Source of the DNA: Limnanthes douglasii subsp. nivea
Lineage: Eukaryota > Streptophyta > Magnoliopsida > Brassicales > Limnanthaceae
Direction: 5' to 3'
Length of the DNA stretch: 64,000 bases
NCBI GenBank assembly: GCA_036936605.1
Contig: JAUPFV010000001.1
Span: 122,954,771 to 123,018,770 of the forward strand
The notes beneath the pieces were generated by a model, which was not told the DNA's origin, searched no databases, and was given only the letters and a program-made list of their open reading frames with translations. Shown here piece after piece: positions 2 to 40,980 of this stretch. How positions within the stretch are numbered: position 1 is the first letter of the stretch; every line of letters begins with the position of its first letter. A program made the position numbers and the translations under genes.

Positions 2-376
2 GATGATGTGTCCAAGGTTACTAAGGAGAAGGAAGATCTAGTGAAAGAGCAGGAGAAGACGATCCAGGCCAAGGTCGATGCGTACACCAATACGGTGATA
101 GATTCCTTAGAAAAGAGGTATGCCGAAGTTAAATCCGACATGGTCTTGCTTTTTCATCAAACATTCCGGAAGAGGACACTCGGTACTCTATGGCAGTATG
201 TTGAATATGAAGATATCCCATTTCACACGATGGTAGATGGTGATAAGAAAAACTATTCCAGTGGTATTGATGATACTACCGATGAGGAAGAAGGGACCAG
301 AGAGAGCTCCAGTGATAAACCCAAAGACCTGAAGAAGAAGAAAAAAGATGATGCAGGAACATTTAAGGGAAACTAG
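2..376 (+). CDS. C-terminal part of the antisense extra ORF (aORF) of element A, partial at the window edge
   Basis: The frame is open from the window start to the TAG at 374-376 (about 124 residues). The first visible in-frame start-like codon is a GTG at position 8, which is internal, not the true start. The segment begins in a lysine/glutamate-rich probable coiled coil. It then carries a block conserved with the aORF of the element at 32540-40980: SDMVLLFH, a KR-rich step, LG.LW.YV and a TMVD motif. An acidic, then lysine-rich tail follows. It lies antisense to gag-pol of element A and converges on it. Function is unknown. No break is visible in this fragment, although the sense genes are heavily damaged. 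Confidence 0.7.
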   Translation, partial: DDVSKVTKEKEDLVKEQEKTIQAKVDAYTNTVIDSLEKRYAEVKSDMVLLFHQTFRKRTLGTLWQYVEYEDIPFHTMVDGDKKNYSSGIDDTTDEEEGTRESSSDKPKDLKKKKKDDAGTFKGN

Positions 377-8295: not shown

Positions 8296-8694
8296 TGACG
8301 CAGTCGGATGCACTAAGACAACAAACGTTGGTCTTAGAATTGAAGGTTCAAGTTTGCGGGTGTCAAACTTGAAGAAAAAACTCTGGAATCCACCAGAAAG
8401 AAACAAATCTCGAAAACTCGAAGACTTTGATTAATAGTAATGATAAAAGTGTTTCCAAAACATAGCACCTAAGGTTCTTTATATAGAGAAAACCCTAAAG
8501 CATAAAATAGGAAGTTCCTAGAAATAAGGAGAATTACTAGAATCTTATCTAGGAAATCTTATCTAGGAAATCTTATCTAGGAAATCTTATCTAAAAAAAA
8601 AGAAATATCTAAAAAAAAGAGATATCTAGAAATATCTAGAAGATATCTAAAAATATCTAGAATAGATTAGGCATTGTAACCGTCTCCTGCATCA
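8296..8694 (-). repeat. 3' LTR of element C (399 bp)
   Basis: It begins TGACGCAGTC and ends CTGCATCA on the plus strand. It holds four copies of a GGAAATCTTATCTA-type 14-bp unit (8548-8594), one more than the other LTR, followed by AT-rich ATATCTAGAA repeats. Confidence 0.92.
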
Positions 8695-9590
8695 GTCTCC
8701 TCCACCTCCAAAGAACTCGTCCCCGAGTTCTTATCTGGATAAAAAACACCATCGGCATGATACTCATAGATGTCCGCTACATTGAACGTATGAGAGATGC
8801 TCATGTCGTCTGGTAGATCCACCACATAAGCATTGTCATTAAGCTTTCGTAAAATCTTGAATGGACCATACTTGCGAGGCTGAAGCTTACGATAAGTACC
8901 GACTGGAAACCTTTCTTTCTTGAGAAACACCATTACTTCATCACCTTCGTTAAAAACCTTGAGCCTCCGTTTTTTATCTGCTGCCCTTTTGTTTTTTTGC
9001 CCAGTTGCTTCCAATCTAGCTCGGACTGCTTCTTTAGTGTCCAAAATGTCTTTAGCCATAGCTTCAGCTGATGCACTAACTCCATGAGCTTTCGGTAGTG
9101 GAACTAAATCAACCACATGCTTCGGGACAGAGGTATATACCAACGCAAATGGTGATTTCCCTGTTGCGGAATGTACGACACTATTGTAAGCAAACTCGAC
9201 CTGCGGTAGAGCTAAATCCCACTGTTTCGGTTTATCACCACAAATACTTCTAATCATGTTACCCAGTGTCCTGTTTGTGACTTCGCTTAGCTTTTCACTA
9301 AAGAAATGCCTGATTCGAATCTGATGGTACCCACTTCGAAGATCTATTTTGGAAAACACCTTTGATCCATTCAACTCATCAAGCATGTCTTCCAACCGAG
9401 GGATAGGAAACCGGTATTTGATTGTGATCTTGTTGATGGCTCTAGAATCAACACACATTCGCCACTGATTACCTTTCTTTGGAACGAGAAGAACTGGTAC
9501 AGCACATGGGCTCATACTCTCGCGGATTAACCCTTTCTTCAGCAAATCTTCAATCTGTTCCCGTACAATTTCATTCTCTTTAGGGCTCAT
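8667..9590 (-). pseudogene. pol: Collapsed pol of element C: RT start fused to an RNase H scrap and integrase C-terminus
   Basis: The 307-residue frame starts with MSPKENEIV and an RT N-terminus ([42 protein letters not shown]). It then jumps to HFFSEKLS, which matches the FFSEKLS motif of RNase H. It jumps again to [10 protein letters not shown], the end of the integrase core, and continues to the integrase C-terminus ([24 protein letters not shown]). Three domains are thus joined in one open frame by two deletions. The RT YxDD box, the RNase H acidic residues and the integrase D,D,E residues are all missing. It overlaps gag-protease by 4 nt in the -1 frame. Confidence 0.85.
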
Positions 9591-11539
9591 TCGATAGTGG
9601 GGAAGATTAGGTAGACTAAACCCGGGATCAAGTCAATGTGATGCTGTATATCACGCATAGGAGGCAGGTTGTCAGGTAGTTCCTCAGCAACTAACTCCTT
9701 GTAATCTTCCAAAAATTCTAACACCTCACGTGGAGTTGTTGTCTCCTCCGTCACGGCACTCACCAATCCCTTGACCACAACCGGATAAAAACACTGTGAT
9801 TCCTTAACAGCCTTGTCAAGTTCTTTATCATCATGCGACATGATGAGGAAGTTTGACTTCTTCTCTGTTGCAATGCTACCAAAATCCTTGACAGGAGCCA
9901 TTGCAATCTTATGATTTCCCCATGTAAACATGACCACATTGTCTCGTCCTCGGTACGTAACGTCGTTATCGTACTGCCATGGTCGCCCAAGGAGAATATG
10001 GCAAACATCCATATCCAAAACGTCACAAATTATCTCCTCTTTGTAATGCTTACCGATTGATAGAGGAATTTTGCAAGTTTCACTAACCCCTACTGTAGAT
10101 CCTTTCTTCACCCATCCGAGACCATACAGTTTCTCATGACGAGTCGTGGGTAGTTTCAAATATGCCACCAATTTTTGAGAAACTAAATTTTCGGAGCTCC
10201 CATTGTCAACAATCACATTGCACACCTTGTTCTGAATAGAACAATGCGTTCTAAACAGATTCTTGCGTTGTCCCTCTTTTTTGGATGATAGCAACAGTCG
10301 TTGTAAAACAATGCTGATTCTGTCCGCAGATTCCTCTTCTGCAAATTCAACTCCCTCATACTCCTCATTCTCCATAAAGTCGTCTTTCTCTTCTTCTAGC
10401 AATGCAACCGTCTTTCTACTGGGACAAACATTCGACCTGTGACCTGTTCCTTGACAACGGAAACACTTGTCGGTGGTTGGTCTAGCATAAGGATTGTTCT
10501 GTTTCGGAGTGGGTGCTTTGTCCTTCTGAATGCCACTAATGGAACTACTTGCTCCTTTGTTGTGAGAGTTGAAATCTCTGTTAACCACGCCTTTGTCCGT
10601 TTCTCTAGCTGGTTCGATGTTGTTTTGGATCGAGGGTCTCCTGAAATTTGTGAAACCCCGAGATGATTTTTCCATCAATTCCGCTTTCAAGGCTAGACTG
10701 GATGCTTCTTGAACTGTCCACACAGTTTGTAACCCTATTTTCTCTTGAAGAGAGCCCTTTAAACCACTGATGTATCTAGCCACCTTCTGATTCTCTGTTT
10801 TGTTTAAGTCACTACGTTCAGAGAAACGTAAAAACTCTGCTGTATAATCAGTCACGGTCCTGCTTCCTTGTACACAATCAATGTACATCTTGTAAAGAAT
10901 CTGCTCGTAGTCCTCCGGTAAGAACCGCTCAGTCATTAGCTGCTTCATTCGGCGCCATGTTCTAACTGGACCCTTCCTCTGTCTTTGCCTTTGAATAGCT
11001 AATTTGTCCCACCAAACAGCTGCAGTCTTCTTTAACCGGATAGCCACCATCTTAACCTGTTTACTCTCCGGGACTTCCATAACATCAAAGAACCGATCGA
11101 CATCAATTTGCCAATCGAGAAAGTCCTCGACACCCATAGTACCATAGAACAATGGAATATCAGCTTTCACTCTGTAATCCTGATTATTTTGATTCCAATG
11201 TTCTACCTCTTCCTCTTCCAATTCCTCCTCCGAGCTAGAATCATCAACAGCGACACGGTTATGCCTGCCTTGTTGTTGATTGTTTCTAACAGGCAGTCGG
11301 TTGTTTCCACCATGTCGGACTCGGGGCGGCTCCTCAACAACTGGTATGTGTCTGCCTTGTCGATTCTGATTTCGTCCCACTCCTTCTCCTCCTCCTTGTC
11401 CTGCGTTAGCAATCTGATTGGTTAATGCTGCAATCTGATTAGTTAACGCTGCCACCAGATTTGCCAGGTTCGTGGTTGATTCGTTCAAACTCGCTGTGAA
11501 ACCCTCCATGTCGGCCCTGGTTACTGGTTGATCACCCAT
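9587..11539 (-). CDS. gag: Gag-protease polyprotein of element C (650 aa)
   Basis: The start is ATG at 11539-11537, 37 nt inside the primer site. The N-terminus is followed by a basic, Asn/Gln-rich region and an acidic stretch ([12 protein letters not shown]). Then come a Retrotrans_gag core ([37 protein letters not shown]), a CCHC zinc knuckle ([14 protein letters not shown], about residues 360-375) and a retropepsin-like region. The protease motif reads VDNGSS, where DSG or DTG is usual, so catalysis is doubtful. The frame ends soon after IPG, where a GGGTTTA heptamer would allow a -1 shift into the pol frame. It is probably translated from the right-hand LTR promoter. Confidence 0.85.
9617..9623 (-). 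promoter_or_regulatory. Slippery heptamer GGGTTTA at the protease/RT junction of element C
   Basis: The minus strand reads CCG GGT TTA in the gag-protease frame, which is exactly the G GGT TTA form of an X XXY YYZ slippery site. A -1 shift here continues as [14 protein letters not shown], the normal start of chromovirus RT. A one-base deletion is the alternative explanation, because most chromoviruses have one continuous frame here. Confidence 0.45.
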
Positions 11540-11575
11540 AGCTGTTCAAGCTTTGAAAAGAGTAGGAGATTGCCT

Positions 11576-11587
11576 GCTCTGATACCA
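11576..11587 (-). promoter_or_regulatory. Primer binding site of element C
   Basis: The minus strand reads TGGTATCAGAGC, the classic site complementary to initiator methionine tRNA, 2 nt inside the right-hand LTR. Confidence 0.9.
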
Positions 11588-11589
11588 CT

Positions 11590-11974
11590 TGACGCAGTCG
11601 GATGCACTAAGACAACAAACGTTGGTCTTAGAATTGAAGGTTCAAGTTTGCGGGTGTCAAACTTGAAGAAAAAACTCTGGAATCCACCAGAAAGAAACAA
11701 ATCTCGAAAACTCGAAGACTTTGATTAATAGTAATGATAAAAGTATTTCCAAAACATAGCACCTAAGGTTCTTTATATAGAGAAAACCCTAAAGCATAAA
11801 ATAGGAAGTTCCTAGAAATAAGGAGAATTACTAGAATCTTATCTAGGAAATCTTATCTAGGAAATCTTATCTAAAAAAAAAGAAATATCTAAAAAAAAGA
11901 GATATCTAGAAATATCTAGAAGATATCTAAAAATATCTAGAATAGATTAGGCATTGTAACTGTCTCCTGCATCA
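11590..11974 (-). repeat. 5' LTR of element C (385 bp)
   Basis: It matches the left LTR end to end except two substitutions (8450/11744 area and 8681/11961) and one fewer 14-bp GGAAATCTTATCTA-type unit. TTTTC follows at 11975-11979. Confidence 0.92.
11771..11779 (-). promoter_or_regulatory. TATA box in the 5' LTR of element C
   Basis: The minus strand reads TATATAAAG, about 180 bp upstream of the LTR end facing gag. It is duplicated in the left LTR at 8477-8485. It is the likely promoter for gag-pol. Confidence 0.6.
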
Positions 11975-32539: not shown

Positions 32540-33052
32540 TGATGAGTCCGAATTCGAAGAGCTCCCCGGAAGGGTAGTCCAAAGTAAATCACCCCGTAAA
32601 ACCGGACAGACTCCATGACTACAATTCGAACAGCACTGGTTGAACCGGACAGATGATTTTGAACATTTTGAACACTGCAAATATAAGTCAGTTCGAACTA
32701 TGACTAAAGTACTAAAATACCTAAACACTATCTGACTAAGCTGTCTATTCACCTACTTAAAAACTTGTGGGTCTTTAAACATGACCCGGGTCCATTAAAC
32801 TTGACCCGAAAGCCCATAAGGGCCCAAATCTTACACTATAAATGCCCAACCACCAGCATTAACTAGGGGTAAGAAAAGTTAACTGCTGCCAGGCTGCTCA
32901 ATTCTCTCACCACCCTTAAAACACCTTGAAATACCCTGAAATATCTTGAAACACCATTAAACACCACCACACCACCGTGAAACACCCTTACGCCGCCTTA
33001 AAACTCCACTTAAAATTACCAGCCTACCCTCAGGCTACTTTTATCCACACCA
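32540..33052 (+). repeat. 5' LTR of element B (513 bp)
   Basis: It starts TGATGAGTCC and ends CCACACCA, and matches the 3' LTR at 512 of 513 positions. The 3' third is rich in short AAACACC-type direct repeats. Confidence 0.96.
32837..32843 (+). promoter_or_regulatory. TATA box in the 5' LTR of element B
   Basis: CTATAAATG context, repeated at 40765-40771 in the 3' LTR. It is the likely promoter for sense gag-pol RNA. Confidence 0.65.
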
Positions 33053-33055
33053 AAT

Positions 33056-33072
33056 TGGCGACCACAGTGGGA
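33056..33072 (+). promoter_or_regulatory. Primer binding site of element B
   Basis: TGGCGACCACAGTGGGA, 3 nt after the LTR end, identical to the site in element A. It looks like the complement of an arginine-type tRNA 3' end (not verified). Confidence 0.8.
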
Positions 33073-33125
33073 GGCGACGGTGCCTGAATCAAACATTCAA
33101 AACCAAGTAAAAGAATTCTGTCCGA

Positions 33126-35468
33126 ATGAATCCGGATAATCCAGAGCTTCCACCAGCTTTGCTCGAAGTGGTGGAAGAGAACGATGAATATACTGTCCAA
33201 GAGCGTGACAGGTTGAGGGTTGAAATAGAAGCTCTGAGGGCTGAGAAGGCCAAGATGGGCATGAAGGAGAAGTCCAAAGCATCAGTTGCTCATCGCTCTG
33301 ATAACCCTCGAGAGCATGAGGCTTCGAAGACTCATGTGAGCACTAAAAAGACACATGCTAGTTCTAAAAAGTCTCACCGGTCCAAGCCTGTGGAGAGTTC
33401 TGACTCAAGTTCAGAATCTTCGGACAGCTCTTCGGACAGTGAGGGGAATGAAAAGTCCTTGTCCTCCAGCAGTGACGAAGGGCGAACCAGGAAAAAACAA
33501 AAGCAAGTTAAAAAGTATTCCAGAAAAAGAGACCACCATGGAAGAATGAAAAGACACATTGGGAAAGGATCATCTCACAGCCGGAGGCATATAGACCGGT
33601 TGCTGATGGATCCATTTGCCTTCCATGATGAGCCAGGTATCTTTGCAACACCTAATGAGGATACCGTGTTCAGTCGTGGAAGGAATTGGAGGCAGTCTCC
33701 ACTGTCTTCTAAAATCCTATCCGGGAACCTCCCCAAGAGGTTTGACAGCACAAAGATGGAGAAGTACGACGGCAGTACTGATCCGGACAATCATCTGGAG
33801 CAATTCAAGAACTTCATGATGAACTTTGATGATGATGATAAACTACTCTGCAGGGCATTCTCCCAATCCTTTACGGGGAGTGCTCTGAAGTGGTACAACA
33901 GCCTTCCTCAGGGTTGTATCAGAGACTTTGACACCTTCTGGGTGGCCTTTCGAAGGCAATTTGTAGGAAGTAAGGAGCTCAAGGGCAATGGAGATACCAT
34001 AATCCATTGTGCCCAAGAGCCAAATGAATCATTGAAAGAATACATAAGTCGTTTTGTGAATACAAAGAACGGGCTGGCTGATTGTTTTGAACAAGTGGCA
34101 ATAGCATCCCTGAGACAGGGTTTGAACCCGGGCAACCTGGCCGATTCAGTAACAAGGAAGAAAGCCATGACCTGGGGTGGATTGCTAAATCAAGTCGGCA
34201 AGCAAATAAATGTTGATGAAACAAAAAAGACCAGGGTGCACAGGCAGGTGAGATCCACCCCGGTAACACCAACTCCCAATCCAAACCAGTCCGGCAACAA
34301 AGCTAGAGAAACCGGACAGGGGCATGGAAGAGGAAAAGCTCAGTCTCAACCAGCTGCTCCTGCACAAAGTCAACAGTCTAGAAACAAAAGGGGGCCGTGG
34401 GTCCAACCGGAGTGGTTTGCAGAGCTCAAAGAGAGTGTGGCAACCATTTTCGAGAAAACTAAAGATGAAGTACACTACCGGAGGCCGGCAACCTTGCAGT
34501 CTCCCAGAGAACATCGAAACAGTTCTTTTTGTCAATATCACAATGATATTGGCCATACTACTGATGATTGTATAGCCTTGAAGCAAGAGGTTCAGAACCT
34601 GATTGAAAGAGGGAAGTTGGGTGCGTATGTCAAAAGAAGAGGAGGCAACAGGCCTGATAACACTCACCGGGCTGGTCCGGTTAATGCTGCCCCAGAAGGG
34701 GCCATGGTAATTGTTGAAAGGTTTGATGTGGAATCAGAATACTTGGATCCTGATCCAACAAGGAACAGAGTGGGTGCAATAGAGGAACGTTCCAGGTCGG
34801 TCTCCGGGCTCATTAAATTCTTTGAGTCCTTGACAATTTTCGGAGGAGACACCGTAACGGCTCCTACCACTTCATCAAGAAAAAGGCATGTTCATAATTT
34901 GGCAACCCAACTAGAAGGGGGCATGACCTCTTATCAATCGTCAAATCTATTTCCATTCATTGTCTTTGATGGGGATGATTTGAGAGACATTGCTGGTCCT
35001 CATGAAGATGCTGTTGTCATAGGAGCATCGATAGGGGGCAATGAGATAAGGCGAATCCTGGTAGATACTGGGAGCTCTGCCAATATCCTTTTCCTAGATA
35101 CTTACAAGAAAATGAAAAATCCAGCTGTGATTCAAAAGTCAGACCGATCGATTGTAGGCTTCACAGGCAGTTCAGCTGATGTAATTGGTGAGTTCGAAGA
35201 AGAAGTATTGTTGGGCAGAGGCCCTTTCAAGAAAACAGTCAGAATACTTTTCATTGTGGTGGACTGTCCCACTTGTTACAATGCTATTCTAGGGAGATCT
35301 TGGCTCTCTAGGATGCATGCAGTGGCTTCAACAGTTCATCAGTGTCTGAAATATGCTGTTCAGGGGCAGGTTGGGGTTGTCCGGAGCAGTCAAAAAGTTG
35401 CAAGAGAATGTTATGCCACTGCCTTGGCTCCACGAACGCTGGGGGCAGTCCGTATGAATGACCAATAG
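33126..35468 (+). CDS. gag: Gag-protease polyprotein of element B (780 aa, intact)
   Basis: The ATG start agrees with the internal MNPDE Met of the sister copy. The order is a charged N-terminus, a Ser/Lys-rich basic region (about residues 65-160), the Retrotrans_gag core (about 163-350: KYDGSTDPDNHLEQF, LKWYNSLPQGCI, EYISRFVNTKNGLAD), then a CxxHxxxxHxxxxC zinc-knuckle variant (FCQYHNDIGHTTDDC, about 465-480). The retropepsin follows, with DTGSS at about 647-651 and LGRSWL downstream. The frame is uninterrupted for 2.3 kb and ends at TAG 35466-35468. The next 390 codons are open in the same frame. The product would form particles and process itself. Long reverse-strand frames here are shadows. 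Confidence 0.92.
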   Translation: MNPDNPELPPALLEVVEENDEYTVQERDRLRVEIEALRAEKAKMGMKEKSKASVAHRSDNPREHEASKTHVSTKKTHASSKKSHRSKPVESSDSSSESSDSSSDSEGNEKSLSSSSDEGRTRKKQKQVKKYSRKRDHHGRMKRHIGKGSSHSRRHIDRLLMDPFAFHDEPGIFATPNEDTVFSRGRNWRQSPLSSKILSGNLPKRFDSTKMEKYDGSTDPDNHLEQFKNFMMNFDDDDKLLCRAFSQSFTGSALKWYNSLPQGCIRDFDTFWVAFRRQFVGSKELKGNGDTIIHCAQEPNESLKEYISRFVNTKNGLADCFEQVAIASLRQGLNPGNLADSVTRKKAMTWGGLLNQVGKQINVDETKKTRVHRQVRSTPVTPTPNPNQSGNKARETGQGHGRGKAQSQPAAPAQSQQSRNKRGPWVQPEWFAELKESVATIFEKTKDEVHYRRPATLQSPREHRNSSFCQYHNDIGHTTDDCIALKQEVQNLIERGKLGAYVKRRGGNRPDNTHRAGPVNAAPEGAMVIVERFDVESEYLDPDPTRNRVGAIEERSRSVSGLIKFFESLTIFGGDTVTAPTTSSRKRHVHNLATQLEGGMTSYQSSNLFPFIVFDGDDLRDIAGPHEDAVVIGASIGGNEIRRILVDTGSSANILFLDTYKKMKNPAVIQKSDRSIVGFTGSSADVIGEFEEEVLLGRGPFKKTVRILFIVVDCPTCYNAILGRSWLSRMHAVASTVHQCLKYAVQGQVGVVRSSQKVARECYATALAPRTLGAVRMNDQ

Positions 35469-35474
35469 CAGTTT
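35463..35474 (+). promoter_or_regulatory. In-frame TAG with readthrough-like context between protease and pol of element B
   Basis: The codons read CAA TAG CAG TTT. The known leaky plant-virus context is CAA TAG CAA TTA (stop followed by CARYYA), so five of the six downstream positions fit. Both sides are open in one frame. The sister element A has no stop at the aligned position, so an ordinary nonsense mutation is also possible. Confidence 0.4.
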
Positions 35475-36638
35475 GAGGGCCTTTCTGGGGGTGAGGGTGA
35501 AATTGATGACCCCAGGGAGACCCCCGGAGTGTTGATCCCAGTTGAGGAAGTTGAGACACACTGCTTAGAAGAAGGGAAATCTGTCAAGATAGGGTCCAAA
35601 ATGCCACAAGTATTGAAAGAAGAAATGTTAAAATTCTTAAAAGACCATCAGCATGTTTTTGCCTGGTGCAATGCTGATGTTACTGGAGTGCCGTCAGAAG
35701 TGATTTCTCATCACTTATCTGTCCGGAGAGACGTAGCACCAGTGGTGCAAAAAAGGAGAGCTTTCTCAAAAGAAAAGGCTGATGTCATTGTACAAGAGGT
35801 TGACAGACTCACAAAGATGGGGCACATTAAAGAAGCTCAGTATCCTTTGTGGACTGCCAATCCAGTCTTGGTAAAAAAGAAAAACGGTAAATGGCGAATG
35901 TGCATAGACTTCACGGATCTCAATCGAGCTTGCCCAAAAGACTTGTATCCGGTCCCCCGGATAGATCAGCTGGTAGATTCTACTTCTGGGAACAAGCTAC
36001 TCTCCTTCATGGATGCTTTCTCCGGATATAATCAGATCCAGGTGGATCCAAGAGATCAAGAGCATACCACTTTTGTTACTGATAGAGGATTACACTGCTA
36101 CAAGGTGATGCCTTTTGGCTTAAAGAAAAATCTGGAAGGGGCTGCTGGGAAGTGGCCTAGTTATTTACAAGAAGTCTTGTGGGCATACCGGACAACGCCT
36201 GGGGCTGCCACACAAGAATCACCTTTTGCCTTGGTCTATGGGATGGATGCAGTAGCTCCCATAGAGAAGACACTCCCCTCTTTTCGTGTTCATAACTTCT
36301 CCGGACAGGCTAATGAAATAGCAATCAGAAATCAGCTTGATTTGATTGAAGAAAGGCGAATAAAAGCTCATCTTAGAATGGCACACTATCAGGGCTTGAT
36401 GAGAAGCAGGTTTGCTTCCAAGGTTAAAAGAAGGGACTTTCAACCAGGAGATAAAGTATTGAGGAAAGTTTTCCTGCACACTAAGGAAAAGCTCTTCGGA
36501 AAGTTGGCCCCAACCTGGGAGGGTCCGTATACTGTGGTTGAAAGAATCAAGCCTGGCACATATTGGCTGGAAGACAAAGATGGCAGGGTTTTAACTCACC
36601 CTTGGAATATTGAACACCTTCGAATGTATTTGGAATAA
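35469..36638 (+). CDS. pol: Shortened pol of element B: RT fingers fused to integrase C-terminus
   Basis: The same frame as gag-protease continues after the TAG. It holds the RT N-terminus (VLVKKKNGKWRMCIDFTDLN, FMDAFSGYNQIQVD, YKVMPFGLK). At 36117-36131 it passes directly into the end of the integrase core (NLEGAAGKWPSYLQEVLWAY) and the integrase C-terminus (YGMDAVAP, KVLRKVF, WEGPY, HPWNIEHLR). The RT YxDD box, both RNase H domains, and the integrase zinc and D,D,E residues are absent. It keeps a 369-codon frame from the first ATG (35529). It ends just before the non-coding interval facing the antisense gene. Confidence 0.88.
   Translation, partial: QFEGLSGGEGEIDDPRETPGVLIPVEEVETHCLEEGKSVKIGSKMPQVLKEEMLKFLKDHQHVFAWCNADVTGVPSEVISHHLSVRRDVAPVVQKRRAFSKEKADVIVQEVDRLTKMGHIKEAQYPLWTANPVLVKKKNGKWRMCIDFTDLNRACPKDLYPVPRIDQLVDSTSGNKLLSFMDAFSGYNQIQVDPRDQEHTTFVTDRGLHCYKVMPFGLKKNLEGAAGKWPSYLQEVLWAYRTTPGAATQESPFALVYGMDAVAPIEKTLPSFRVHNFSGQANEIAIRNQLDLIEERRIKAHLRMAHYQGLMRSRFASKVKRRDFQPGDKVLRKVFLHTKEKLFGKLAPTWEGPYTVVERIKPGTYWLEDKDGRVLTHPWNIEHLRMYLE
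36117..36131 (+). other. Deletion junction in element B pol
   Basis: GGCTTAAAGAA of the RT GLKN codons is joined to AAATCTGGAAGG of the integrase GLKNNLEG codons. In element A both sites encode GLKN and share a TAAARAA-type microhomology. About 2.0 kb is missing relative to A, in frame. Confidence 0.8.
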
Positions 36639-37077
36639 AATTTATGTAAATATTTACTTGTTTAAACATCCATGTAAATATTTGGGGGCATACCACTACC
36701 TCTCTCTGGCGCCACGGAGAGCTTTAAATGAAACTTGGAGCTTTTTTGAATAAATTTTCTAAGTTTTTACAAAATTCTGTTGATTGCCATACTACCCGGA
36801 CTGAAAGATCTAAGGGCTATTTAAATTCTAGCCGGAGAAATTAAACACTCTCACAATGCGAAGTACTTAAACAAACTCTAGAATAAGAGAAAGGTTGTGC
36901 AAGATAAAACATTCATTCAATAAACTTAAAGTTGCCTTGGCCTTCCAAGGACTTTGTGAATAAGTTTAAACACAATACAAAAATCTGTCCGGTCAAAACG
37001 GACAGCATCACAAAAAAGGAGCCTTGGCCTTCCAAGGACTTTGGTTCAAACAAACATTAAACAAAACAAATTACCAT
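36639..37077. other. Non-coding interval between convergent pol and aORF of element B, with three hairpins
   Basis: Two identical CCTTGGCCTTCCAAGG hairpins at 36935-36950 and 37022-37037 flank a third one, CTGTCCG-GTCAAAA-CGGACAG, at 36985-37005. The CCAAGGACTTT part of the repeated motif recurs twice in the same place in element A. The interval is the likely site of both transcript ends. Confidence 0.65.
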
Positions 37078-40036
37078 TTAAGGTGGAGCCTTTGAAGATG
37101 GCTCACCCTCATCTGTTCCCTTGGTCTTAACATCGCTTTTGTCTTCAATGACCTTCTTTCCTTTGGGGTCAGCCTCTTCTTCTCCCGGACTCTCTCCGGT
37201 TTCCTCCTCGTCACCAGATGAGGATATATCAGTATACCCTTCATCAACCATGGTCCAATATGGAAGATCGTCGTCATCCACATAACGCCATAAGTCCCCA
37301 AGTCTTCTCTTCGGGAACTTCTCGTGAAATAAGAGGACCATGTCAGACTTTACCTTTTCGATCAGTAGTTCTTCACTCCGTAGCATCTCCTTGGCATAAG
37401 CATTGACTTTGGCCTTGATCATGGCCTCTTGATCCTTCACCAGGGCAGCTTTCTCACCAATAGCCTGAGTCACTGCATTCTCCAAAGTAAGTTTGTCAGT
37501 AGTCAGATTGGTGACAATCTTTTCTTTTGCTGCAGTCTCATCTTTTGAGGTTTTCAAGTCTTTCTCCAACTCGGACAGCTTAGCCTGGAGATCTTCTAGG
37601 GTTTTCTCCAAAGAGGCAACTTTTGTGTTGCTCTCATCTTTACTCCTCTTCAGCTGCTCGTTCGACTCCTTAAGCAAGTCAACCTGGGTAGTGGCACCTC
37701 GGAGGTTATCGGACAGTTTTTCCTTCTCGGACTTAAGCTCCTTAATGGTTTCTGCCTGACTCCGGACTTGCCTTTCCAAGGTAAGCACAGGTTGCACGTT
37801 GCTAAGGAGAGAGTGAGCTATGATATCCCTTTCACTGGAGACCAAGAAAGTTTTGCCATTAAAATTCACCGTGTTGGAATTACTTGGAGGAACATATGGC
37901 CCTGCAAACTCGTCCCTAGACAAACCAAGGAAGTAGTCACCTAGAGGACCCAGGCCGGTGACATCCACTTCATCCATGTTGATCTCTCCCCGTTCAATGT
38001 CATCAGTGTGAAGCTCCCCTGGAATCCCTTCGTTAAGGTTTTCTGGGATCTCTTCGGCTAATGTAGGATCAACTGGAAAAGTGGGCTCCGGGTCCCGGAG
38101 AGCAAATTCTTCTTCTTGAGAAGTTTTCTTCTTTTTTACTTCTCTCTCAACACCCTCACTTACTTGTTTACGGGTTCGTTTGGAGACCCTCGTAGGTTTT
38201 GAGGGAGTCTCTCCGTGCTCTTTACTTTCCACTTCTACCACCTGTAGAAGGCTTGCATCAACTTGAACTGAAATTGGCGCCTCTGTGTCAGTCAGGGCCT
38301 TTTTCTCTGAATCTCCTGCTGTTTTCTTCCCTTTCTTCTTCTGGCCCTTCATCTTACTTGGGGCTTTGGCCCGAAGAGGGAGGAAAAGGGTCCCATCTAG
38401 CTCGTGAGACCTTCTTAGCACTATGTCATCATCAGGAGGGGTGGAGAGCTCCTCCCATGTTAAATCCCTCCGACCTGTAGTGTTCCACAGGTGAGATCTG
38501 GCTAAGTTTCCCGGAGTGAAAGCCTTGTGGAACCGGTTCTCCCAGTTCTCTGCGGCCCATGTGTTTATTTTGCCACAGGTAACCTGTCCGGCTTTCGTAT
38601 AGTCTCCGAACTCTTTTGGCAGTTCTGGCAAAACAAAAGAGCAACTAGTTAGTGAAAGCTTAAAGAAAAGAAATTCGAACAGAAACTTAAGGAAAGAACT
38701 TACGATCGCTCCTCCATCTACTTCGAAGAAGGCTAGGATTCTCCCCAACCTTGATCTTCTTCCCGTTCTCCCATGAGCCACTTATAAACAAGAACTGGCT
38801 CCTCCACTTATTCTCCGATTCTAGGAGATCATCAACAGCTTTCAGATTGTTCCCCATATTGAAGTGATAAAAGGGGAACTGGTGGTGTTTGCACAGACTG
38901 GCAACAGCAGCGAACTCTTCCATTGGAAGAGGAATTCCGGACAGCCTGGATGCCATAATACATGACATCAGGGTGTACCATCCGTTGGGGCTCAGCTGCG
39001 ATGGACATAGCTTCACTAAGTGGAAATAGCGCACTATCTCCGGATCCAATGGGAACCTGAGTCCCCAATTGAACAGCTCTGTAAAAAATACAATCTCATT
39101 CCTCTTACAATCCATCGGGGTCTCTGGATCGATGGGAATTCGGATCTTTACGTTTTCAGGGATCCCCCACTTAGTGCGAAGCCGTCCTAAGTCTCTAGTG
39201 TGAATAAATGCATACTTGGTTTTTAACAAAGATAAGAGATACTTAAACTCTACCTTGTGAAAGCAGGGCCCAACTTTCCCTTCAAGGCACTCCGGCAGAT
39301 CCGGACGGCTCAAGAACAAGTCCTCTTTGCCTTTCTTGGCAACGACTATGGCAGTATCAGCTTGTCCGGACGACTCGGACTCAAACCTAGCCTCCTCAAT
39401 GGAGTCTTCCATCCTCTCCTCCATAACTGTTGGGGGAGCTTCTGCAGAAACAGCCCGGGGAGGGATGAAGCTTGGTACAGCTGATCCTCCGGACTGGCGA
39501 CTCGTTGTATGTTTTTGAATTTTCACCTCAGCTTGAGTCTCTGAGGTCGAGGTTTCCCTTGGAGGTAGTGGACTGCTGGCCTCCGGACCGACCGGCCTCT
39601 CCCGGAGGGTCCTAGCAGTTGTTCCGGACCCAGACTCACTGGTGTTTTTCGAGGAGAGTCCCTTAACCAGTCGACTTGGTCTTTTCATGATCAGTTTCTC
39701 TGGGGAATGATCAGAGTCGGACCCCATAGCTATAAAGGTAGTTTTCTTCCTAACACTTGTAACAACAACCTCCGGTTCGACGGTGGGAATTGACTCTTGG
39801 ACTGATGAGCCAGAAACTATGGGGGAGAGTGTTGATTGGAAGAGTTTTCTAGGTTTTGTACCTTTTGAAGAAGACGAACCCCTATCAGATTCTTCGATTG
39901 AAGTGGCTGGTCTCTCAACTGGCGATGCTGGAAGCCCTGCTGCAATCCTTTTCTCTTTTTCAACCCTTTGAGCTCTCTCTAGTTCTGAAAGATTGAGCCA
40001 GCCACCCTTGATTAAAGCTGTTCTTGCTGTGAACAT
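37078..40036 (-). CDS. Antisense extra gene (aORF) of element B, two exons, about 959 aa
   Basis: Exon 1 is 40036-38704 and exon 2 is 38624-37078, joined in phase across a 79-nt intron. I chose the ATG at 40036 because a TATA box lies about 100 bp upstream. The ATG at 40225 lies upstream of that TATA. Exon 1 has a Ser/Pro-rich region, then at about residues 274-424 a conserved domain (TKWGIPENV, FFTELFNWGLRFPL, LCPSQLSPNGWYTL, SGIPLPMEEFAAVA) resembling the putative gypsy-type transposon domain (Transposase_28). Exon 2 has a KINTWAAENWENRF block, basic clusters (KRTRKQV, KKKK), a coiled coil (about 726-869) and a conserved C-terminus (SDMVLLFH, TMVDEG) with an acidic tail. The composition suggests a nuclear protein. 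Its role is unknown. Confidence 0.8.
38625..38703 (-). other. Intron of the antisense gene in element B (79 nt)
   Basis: The minus strand reads GATC|GTAAGTTC at the donor and TTTTGCCAG|AACTG at the acceptor, with a T-rich tract before the AG. Exon 1 leaves one base and exon 2 supplies two, so the frames of the two long ORFs join exactly. Both ORFs run on only as short, non-conserved tails into the intron. Confidence 0.78.
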
Positions 40037-40130
40037 AAAACGATTAAGGAGAATTTGAAGATTTAGAGAGATGAAGTTTTGAGTGAAGTAGCAGAGTAAA
40101 AGTGAAAGTGAAACTGTGAAAGACAAATAG

Positions 40131-40140
40131 TATTTATAGT
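40131..40140 (-). promoter_or_regulatory. TATA box of the antisense gene of element B
   Basis: The minus strand reads ACTATAAATA, 95-104 nt upstream of the ATG at 40036. A CT-rich leader typical of plant 5' UTRs lies between them. It sits inside the element, between the gene and the 3' LTR, so the gene has its own promoter. Confidence 0.6.
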
Positions 40141-40453
40141 AAATGTAAAAAAGGGGTTTGATTCCTAGGAGAATCCGAAAAGTTGGGCAATGATTAAAAG
40201 ACGGCGCTGACGTCATCAAAACCATTTAAAGAAGTTATCTATTTAATAAAGTGGTGTAATTTTCGAGGTAGAAAAACGGCTGGGGTGACCAACCAAAGGG
40301 TGACACGTGTCCCACTACTTCTGACAAAGAACCGTTTGGAATTCGTAACGGTTGGGCTGTCCGGGCCTAACTCAACTCTCTTCGAATTGGAAAACCACTT
40401 GTCAAATCGGACTGTTTTTCAGTTCTTTAACAAGGACACTTGTTCAAATACCT

Positions 40454-40463
40454 AAAAAAGGGG
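40454..40463 (+). promoter_or_regulatory. Polypurine tract of element B
   Basis: AAAAAAGGGG, 4 nt before the 3' LTR. Confidence 0.8.
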
Positions 40464-40467
40464 CTCC

Positions 40468-40980
40468 TGATGAGTCCGAATTCGAAGAGCTCCCCGGAAG
40501 GGTAGTCCAAAGTAAATCACCCCGTAAAACCGGACAGACTCCATGACTACAATTCGAACAGCACTGGTTGAACCGGACAGATGATTTTGAACATTTTGAA
40601 TACTGCAAATATAAGTCAGTTCGAACTATGACTAAAGTACTAAAATACCTAAACACTATCTGACTAAGCTGTCTATTCACCTACTTAAAAACTTGTGGGT
40701 CTTTAAACATGACCCGGGTCCATTAAACTTGACCCGAAAGCCCATAAGGGCCCAAATCTTACACTATAAATGCCCAACCACCAGCATTAACTAGGGGTAA
40801 GAAAAGTTAACTGCTGCCAGGCTGCTCAATTCTCTCACCACCCTTAAAACACCTTGAAATACCCTGAAATATCTTGAAACACCATTAAACACCACCACAC
40901 CACCGTGAAACACCCTTACGCCGCCTTAAAACTCCACTTAAAATTACCAGCCTACCCTCAGGCTACTTTTATCCACACCA
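40468..40980 (+). repeat. 3' LTR of element B (513 bp)
   Basis: Identical to the 5' LTR except T at 40601 for C at 32673. TCTTT follows at 40981-40985. Confidence 0.96.

Follow-up and report, generated by a model that had tools for sequence, protein, structure and literature searches.

Can a retrotransposon that is copied through its sense-strand RNA carry, on the opposite strand, a gene interrupted by an intron? The question is raised by element B, which lies in a 64,000-nt stretch of Limnanthes douglasii subsp. nivea DNA (the window; G000:C1:122954771-123018770, in a genome of 1.78 Gb and 633 contigs). A first-pass annotation had read the minus strand of this element as an intact two-exon gene. 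From sequence comparison within this genome, we put a probability of about 0.92 on the following reading: element B would be a member of a Retand-like Ty3/gypsy lineage (Tat clade) whose antisense gene has its own TATA promoter, one spliceosomal intron and a 959-residue product, the intron would have been spliced in vivo in the past, and the inverted blocks described below would have arisen via template switching.

Element B (32540-40980) is bounded by a pair of long terminal repeats (LTRs) and a 5-bp target-site duplication (TSD), TCTTT. The 5′ LTR (32540..33052, plus strand) and the 513-nt 3′ LTR (40468..40980, plus strand) are identical at 512 of 513 positions. Differences between LTRs are dated with a rate of 1.3e-8 per site per year, and the single difference translates into an insertion age of roughly 0.08 million years. 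The gag-protease ORF (33126..35468, plus strand) is open, with a Retrotrans_gag match at E=6.4e-13 and an RVP match under the cut-off. The pol remnant that follows (35529..36638, plus strand) fuses the start of reverse transcriptase (RT) to the C-terminal region of integrase, with the junction near 36117, and most of the RT, RH and INT core is missing. The first-pass description of a young element is thus right as to age, but the element is internally deleted. With a probe over the fusion, element B alone among 40 scored matches covers the junction; the other 39 begin past it, so the deletion is private to element B among the scored copies. The region between pol and the 3′ LTR (36639-40467) measures about 3.8 kb and holds the antisense Transposase_28 (TRP28) ORF, which, together with the LTR pair and the 5-bp TSD, is a Retand trait. 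The antisense gene is intact despite the lost RT-to-integrase core. A second LTR element lies elsewhere in the window (8296-11878, minus strand), with 289-nt repeats that are 99% alike; its gag-protease is followed by an ORF in which the RT start is fused to the integrase C-terminus, and it therefore also lacks a pol core.

On the minus strand of element B, two long frames of 512 codons (38687-40225) and 567 codons (37078-38781) overlap, at the coordinates first reported. The coding part of exon 1 (38704..40036, minus strand) runs in open frame from the ATG at 40036 to 38704, the first base of a split codon, and its conserved start, MFTAR or MFSAR, recurs in two other families (L037 and L036). 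The predicted intron (38625..38703, minus strand) comprises 79 nt, of which 51% are T, lies in phase 1 and runs from GTAAGT to TTTTGCCAG, with GATC before the donor and AACTGCC after the acceptor. The coding part of exon 2 (37078..38624, minus strand), again an open frame, has a conserved beginning, basic clusters, a coiled coil and a conserved C-terminal motif before the stop. Splicing would join RWRSD to QLPKEF and give a product of 444 + 1 + 514 codons, matching the protein of about 959 residues proposed at first pass. Taken from a single sequence, this intron call is weak, because 55 GT-AG pairs in element B (introns of 60-400 nt) would join the frames in phase. Confirmation comes from comparison: in five other families an intron recurs at this site and in this phase, and two genomic sites lack exactly the intron.

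A genome search with the Pfam model PF04195, in which 150 of 20,529 candidates were scored, returned at least 27 loci, all of them scoring above the Pfam threshold. By tblastn, the exon-1 frame of element B was matched by 26 of the 27 loci, and exon 2 was detectable in four (L027, L028, L032 and L035), three of which have a clear intron; L035 is too decayed for placement. The junction sequence of 11 of the 27 loci was inspected, and in seven of these no intron was placed; in two of them, L023 and L033, GTAAGG stands close to the expected position, with exon 2 not found by tblastn. Relative to element B, L028 (extended as L037) is 59% identical in exon 1 and 54% in exon 2, the frame changing between exons. 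The corresponding values for L036 are 51% and 46%, and its exons share one frame because its intron measures 81 nt. This L036 gene overlaps the left edge of the window, where positions 8-307 (plus strand) hold the end of its exon 2 at 48.5% identity; the complete gene, both exons included, carries stops and a frameshift and is located immediately beyond the window (G000:C1:122950771-122955770).

Intron length varies from 79 nt in element B to 80 nt (L028/L037), 81 nt (L036), 82 nt (L027/L038) and 154 nt (L032/L039), and a sixth family, L080, has 81 nt. In all six families, which come from one genome, the intron is GT-AG, in phase 1 and at the same aligned residue. Compared across families, intron identity is close to background but the flanking exons are conserved; in L038/L039, for example, intron identity is 0.21 versus 0.83 and 0.81 in the flanking exons. 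The GT-AG ends, T-richness and conserved site and phase are traits of U2-type introns, and a branch-point-like word occurs in three of the six introns. Within the B family, GT, AG and intron length are kept in all 40 aligned rows (element B itself, which is row L001, and 39 copies), a set that favours intron-bearing copies because it was picked with an intron-spanning probe.

These lengths also bear on whether splicing is needed at all. The two frames overlap by 95 nt in element B (38687-38781), so that programmed ribosomal frameshifting could in principle join them. However, intron length modulo 3 is 1, 2, 0, 1 and 1 between families; the frame offset thus varies while the joined frame stays constant, which excludes frameshifting, and frameshifting would leave no DNA copies without the 79-83 nt. 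We rejected it on the constancy of the joined frame and consider it the least credible of the alternatives. Hardly more credible is a pair of separate antisense proteins made from the two ORFs without splicing. The Retand survey reports 104 antisense ORFs in 63 clusters using ORF Finder (PMC11963269), as two-ORF elements would produce, but a two-exon gene would likewise appear there as two ORFs because ORFs were called singly. Moreover, the frame tails that fall inside the intron lack conservation between families, as first noted for element B, exon 2 lacks a separate conserved start, and the spliced junction is present in the genome.

Both exons are under purifying selection. Between L038 and L039, Ka/Ks is 0.13 in each exon (440 and 114 codons). 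Between element B and L037, pN is 0.225 in exon 1 and 0.263 in exon 2, against pS values of 0.80 and 0.71; several between-family Ks values are saturated. Among distinct variants in the 40 B-family rows, exon 1 has 59 synonymous, 57 non-synonymous and 3 stop changes, and exon 2 has 54, 72 and 4, respectively. The synonymous share is therefore 50% and 42%, where shares of about 27, 69 and 3% (synonymous, non-synonymous, stop) are expected. For LTR elements in general, antisense transcripts have been proposed as possibly acting as RNA (PMC7264820), and the transcript of element B might pair with genomic RNA or feed siRNA production with its reading frame incidental. We regard this as improbable in view of pN well below pS in both exons, the excess of synonymous variants, and the 33 of 40 B-family rows in which both exons are free of stops and gaps. 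In a related element (L078/L079), the gag protein is 89.5% identical to that of element B, against 50-77% for parts of the antisense gene; the antisense gene therefore diverges faster.

Genomic sites at which the exons are already joined speak to splicing itself; all match counts given here are lower bounds. A 30-nt joined-exon probe of element B, allowing up to three mismatches, has one genome match listed (L045/L078), and the reversed control has none. This element has LTRs that are 94.6% alike over 408 nt and the TSD ATAAT. Compared with L080, a closely related copy that has the intron, it reads in order as direct sequence (93.5%), inverted exon 2 (95.8%), inverted exon 1 (96.7%) and direct sequence (90.1%), and the L080-type 81-nt intron is missing to the base at the exon 2/exon 1 junction. 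A probe built on this block matches unbroken only at L045 itself, and 34 measured copies break exactly at the junction by 79-83 nt. These are 34 of the 39 other copies, from 71 of 79 match rows; the rows left out are the self match, five with a piece ending off the junction and two partner rows. A spliced probe of the L037 family led to a second site, L081 (control 0). Here exon 1 in direct orientation is followed by an inverted block, in which exon 2 is joined to roughly the final 25 nt of exon 1, and then by exon 2 in direct orientation. Its breakpoints differ from those of L078, and an LTR-like stretch lies beyond its promoter side. A degenerate spliced probe over the B/L037-type families, at up to two mismatches, matches only these two sites among the matches listed, both with 0 mismatches (control 0), while the boundary between exon 1 and the donor has at least 7,332 genomic matches at up to one mismatch (control 1). 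A spliced probe of the L038 branch gave no genome match. The two junctions thus belong to two different families, and each sits in an inverted block inside an otherwise normally oriented antisense gene. Spliced antisense RNA copied back to DNA would leave just such inverted intron-free blocks. What the genomic junctions demonstrate is that, at two sites, sequence joined by splicing at the predicted positions was converted to DNA; the splice was hence used in vivo, which is indirect evidence that the intron is removed from RNA.

The first-pass annotation had further argued that the intron must be preserved through sense-strand cycles. Splicing on the antisense strand is supported, but no special means of preservation is called for: in the sense genomic RNA the intron is present as its reverse complement, and this cannot serve as a substrate for splicing. 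Because splicing at this site is possible in the antisense transcript alone, sense genomic RNA would always carry the intron through reverse transcription. The inverted blocks would form if reverse transcriptase left the sense genomic RNA that it was copying, switched onto spliced antisense mRNA and later returned. At the L081 switch points, judged on L037 (88% alike), the shared words are 7 and 7 nt; at those of L078 they are 3 and about 0-2 nt.

The blocks might instead have arisen by DNA events in a gene that is truly spliced, either through intron loss via cDNA followed by inversion and deletion or as filler in break repair. Direct sequence resumes 2 and 31 nt from the distal end of the respective inverted segment, as an inversion would give, and short shared words occur in break repair too. 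Yet both spliced junctions lie in inverted orientation and the probes revealed none in direct orientation, inversion being what an antisense RNA template predicts, and intron loss plus inversion demands two events per case. We therefore give the DNA events an appreciable but clearly lesser chance, and template switching onto spliced antisense mRNA is the likely origin of the inverted blocks. A broader version, for which we would offer slightly less than even odds, is that spliced antisense mRNA regularly accompanies sense genomic RNA, perhaps paired with it in a duplex, that reverse transcriptase switches onto it and leaves inverted intron-free blocks, and that the pairing may regulate the cycle. 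The blocks suggest that antisense mRNA can enter reverse transcription; if the broader version holds, each of them records such an entry and the intron is a natural strand marker.

The antisense gene has a candidate TATA box, TATAAATA (40131..40138, minus strand), which lies outside the LTR and 102 nt upstream of the ATG. TATAAA is found upstream in all six families examined: at 108, 103 and 104 nt from the ATG in L037, L036 and L078, respectively, and, in L038 and L039, 83 nt upstream of a conserved N-terminal motif. Antisense transcription would start some 30 nt below this box. Further upstream, TGGGACACGTGTC (40302..40314, minus strand), the core of which we take to be a G-box, is identical in element B, L037, L036 and L078; L038 and L039 lack it. 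Element B and L037 share GATGACGTCAG at the same place, and L039 has the word TGACGTCA at another place. In 11 of the 40 B-family rows (L059, L061, L065, L067, L068 and L072-L077), the upstream region differs at 23-26 positions and has 6 gaps over 294 nt, whereas neither exon differs by more than 20 bases; an exchange of the antisense promoter region is therefore likely in these copies. Below the antisense stop codon, CCTTGGAAGGCCAAGG occurs twice (36940-37050 of the window, minus strand) and could form a 6-bp hairpin; similar words occur at the same place in L037, and the folding z-score of the two hairpins is -1.6.

The spliced mRNA would be translated into the 959-residue TRP28/coiled-coil protein. 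The domain was at first called Transposase_28-like. All 27 listed relatives pass the PF04195 cut-off, and five of these align with element B at 33-74%. Element B itself, with its TRP28-like region in exon 1 (about 38705-39259), scores 17.5 bits and so falls below the Pfam gathering cut-off of 26.2. Protein database searches with both antisense frames gave no match at E<=0.001. A structure model predicted for the TRP28 region from the single sequence was too poor to use (pLDDT 37), and a profile search for a solved relative of this region gave none that was convincing (one row, E=0.17). By analogy, the protein would most likely act in the nucleus, binding nucleic acid and regulating the cycle of the element that encodes it, a proposal that we hold at about even strength.

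Extra antisense ORFs were already known in Retand elements, as the first-pass annotation noted. According to the published survey, an antisense TRP28 (PF04195) ORF lies between pol and the 3′ LTR in 97% of recent clusters, the pol-3′ LTR region measures 2.9-6.6 kb, and defective clusters lacking gag-pol parts occur (Vicient, 2025; PMC11963269). Element B resembles these elements in its antisense TRP28 ORF, its long pol-3′ LTR region and its partial loss of gag-pol. The word "intron" has 0 occurrences in the main text of that survey. Grande of maize offers another parallel: its gene23, as summarized in PMC7264820, is antisense, downstream of pol, served by its own promoter and translated into a nuclear protein, and the gene of element B is likewise antisense, downstream of pol and equipped with its own candidate promoter. 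In our literature search no plant antisense ORF of this kind turned out to be described as having an intron, the original description of gene23 (Gomez-Orte, 2013) lying outside its reach. Antisense TRP28 genes in Retand and spliced HTLV antisense transcripts are thus known, and an intron in such a plant antisense gene is apparently new. Readable on the antisense strand only, the conserved intron is a strand marker that can be tested in existing RNA-seq data, and pairs of antisense ORFs in Retand-type elements may be one split gene.

Among retroviruses, the HBZ and APH genes of HTLV-1 to -4 are described as lying antisense near the 3′ end, producing spliced transcripts and encoding nuclear regulators (PMC3185765). 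The antisense gene of element B, near the 3′ end and with an intron, is like them in organization; transcription of HBZ and APH starts in the 3′ LTR, whereas the conserved TATA box of element B lies outside the LTR. Ogre is a Tat-clade LTR element whose sense transcript reportedly contains an intron that is removed from a subset (PMC6317226). Ogre and element B thus both have introns in Tat-clade LTR elements, the predicted intron of element B lying on the opposite strand.
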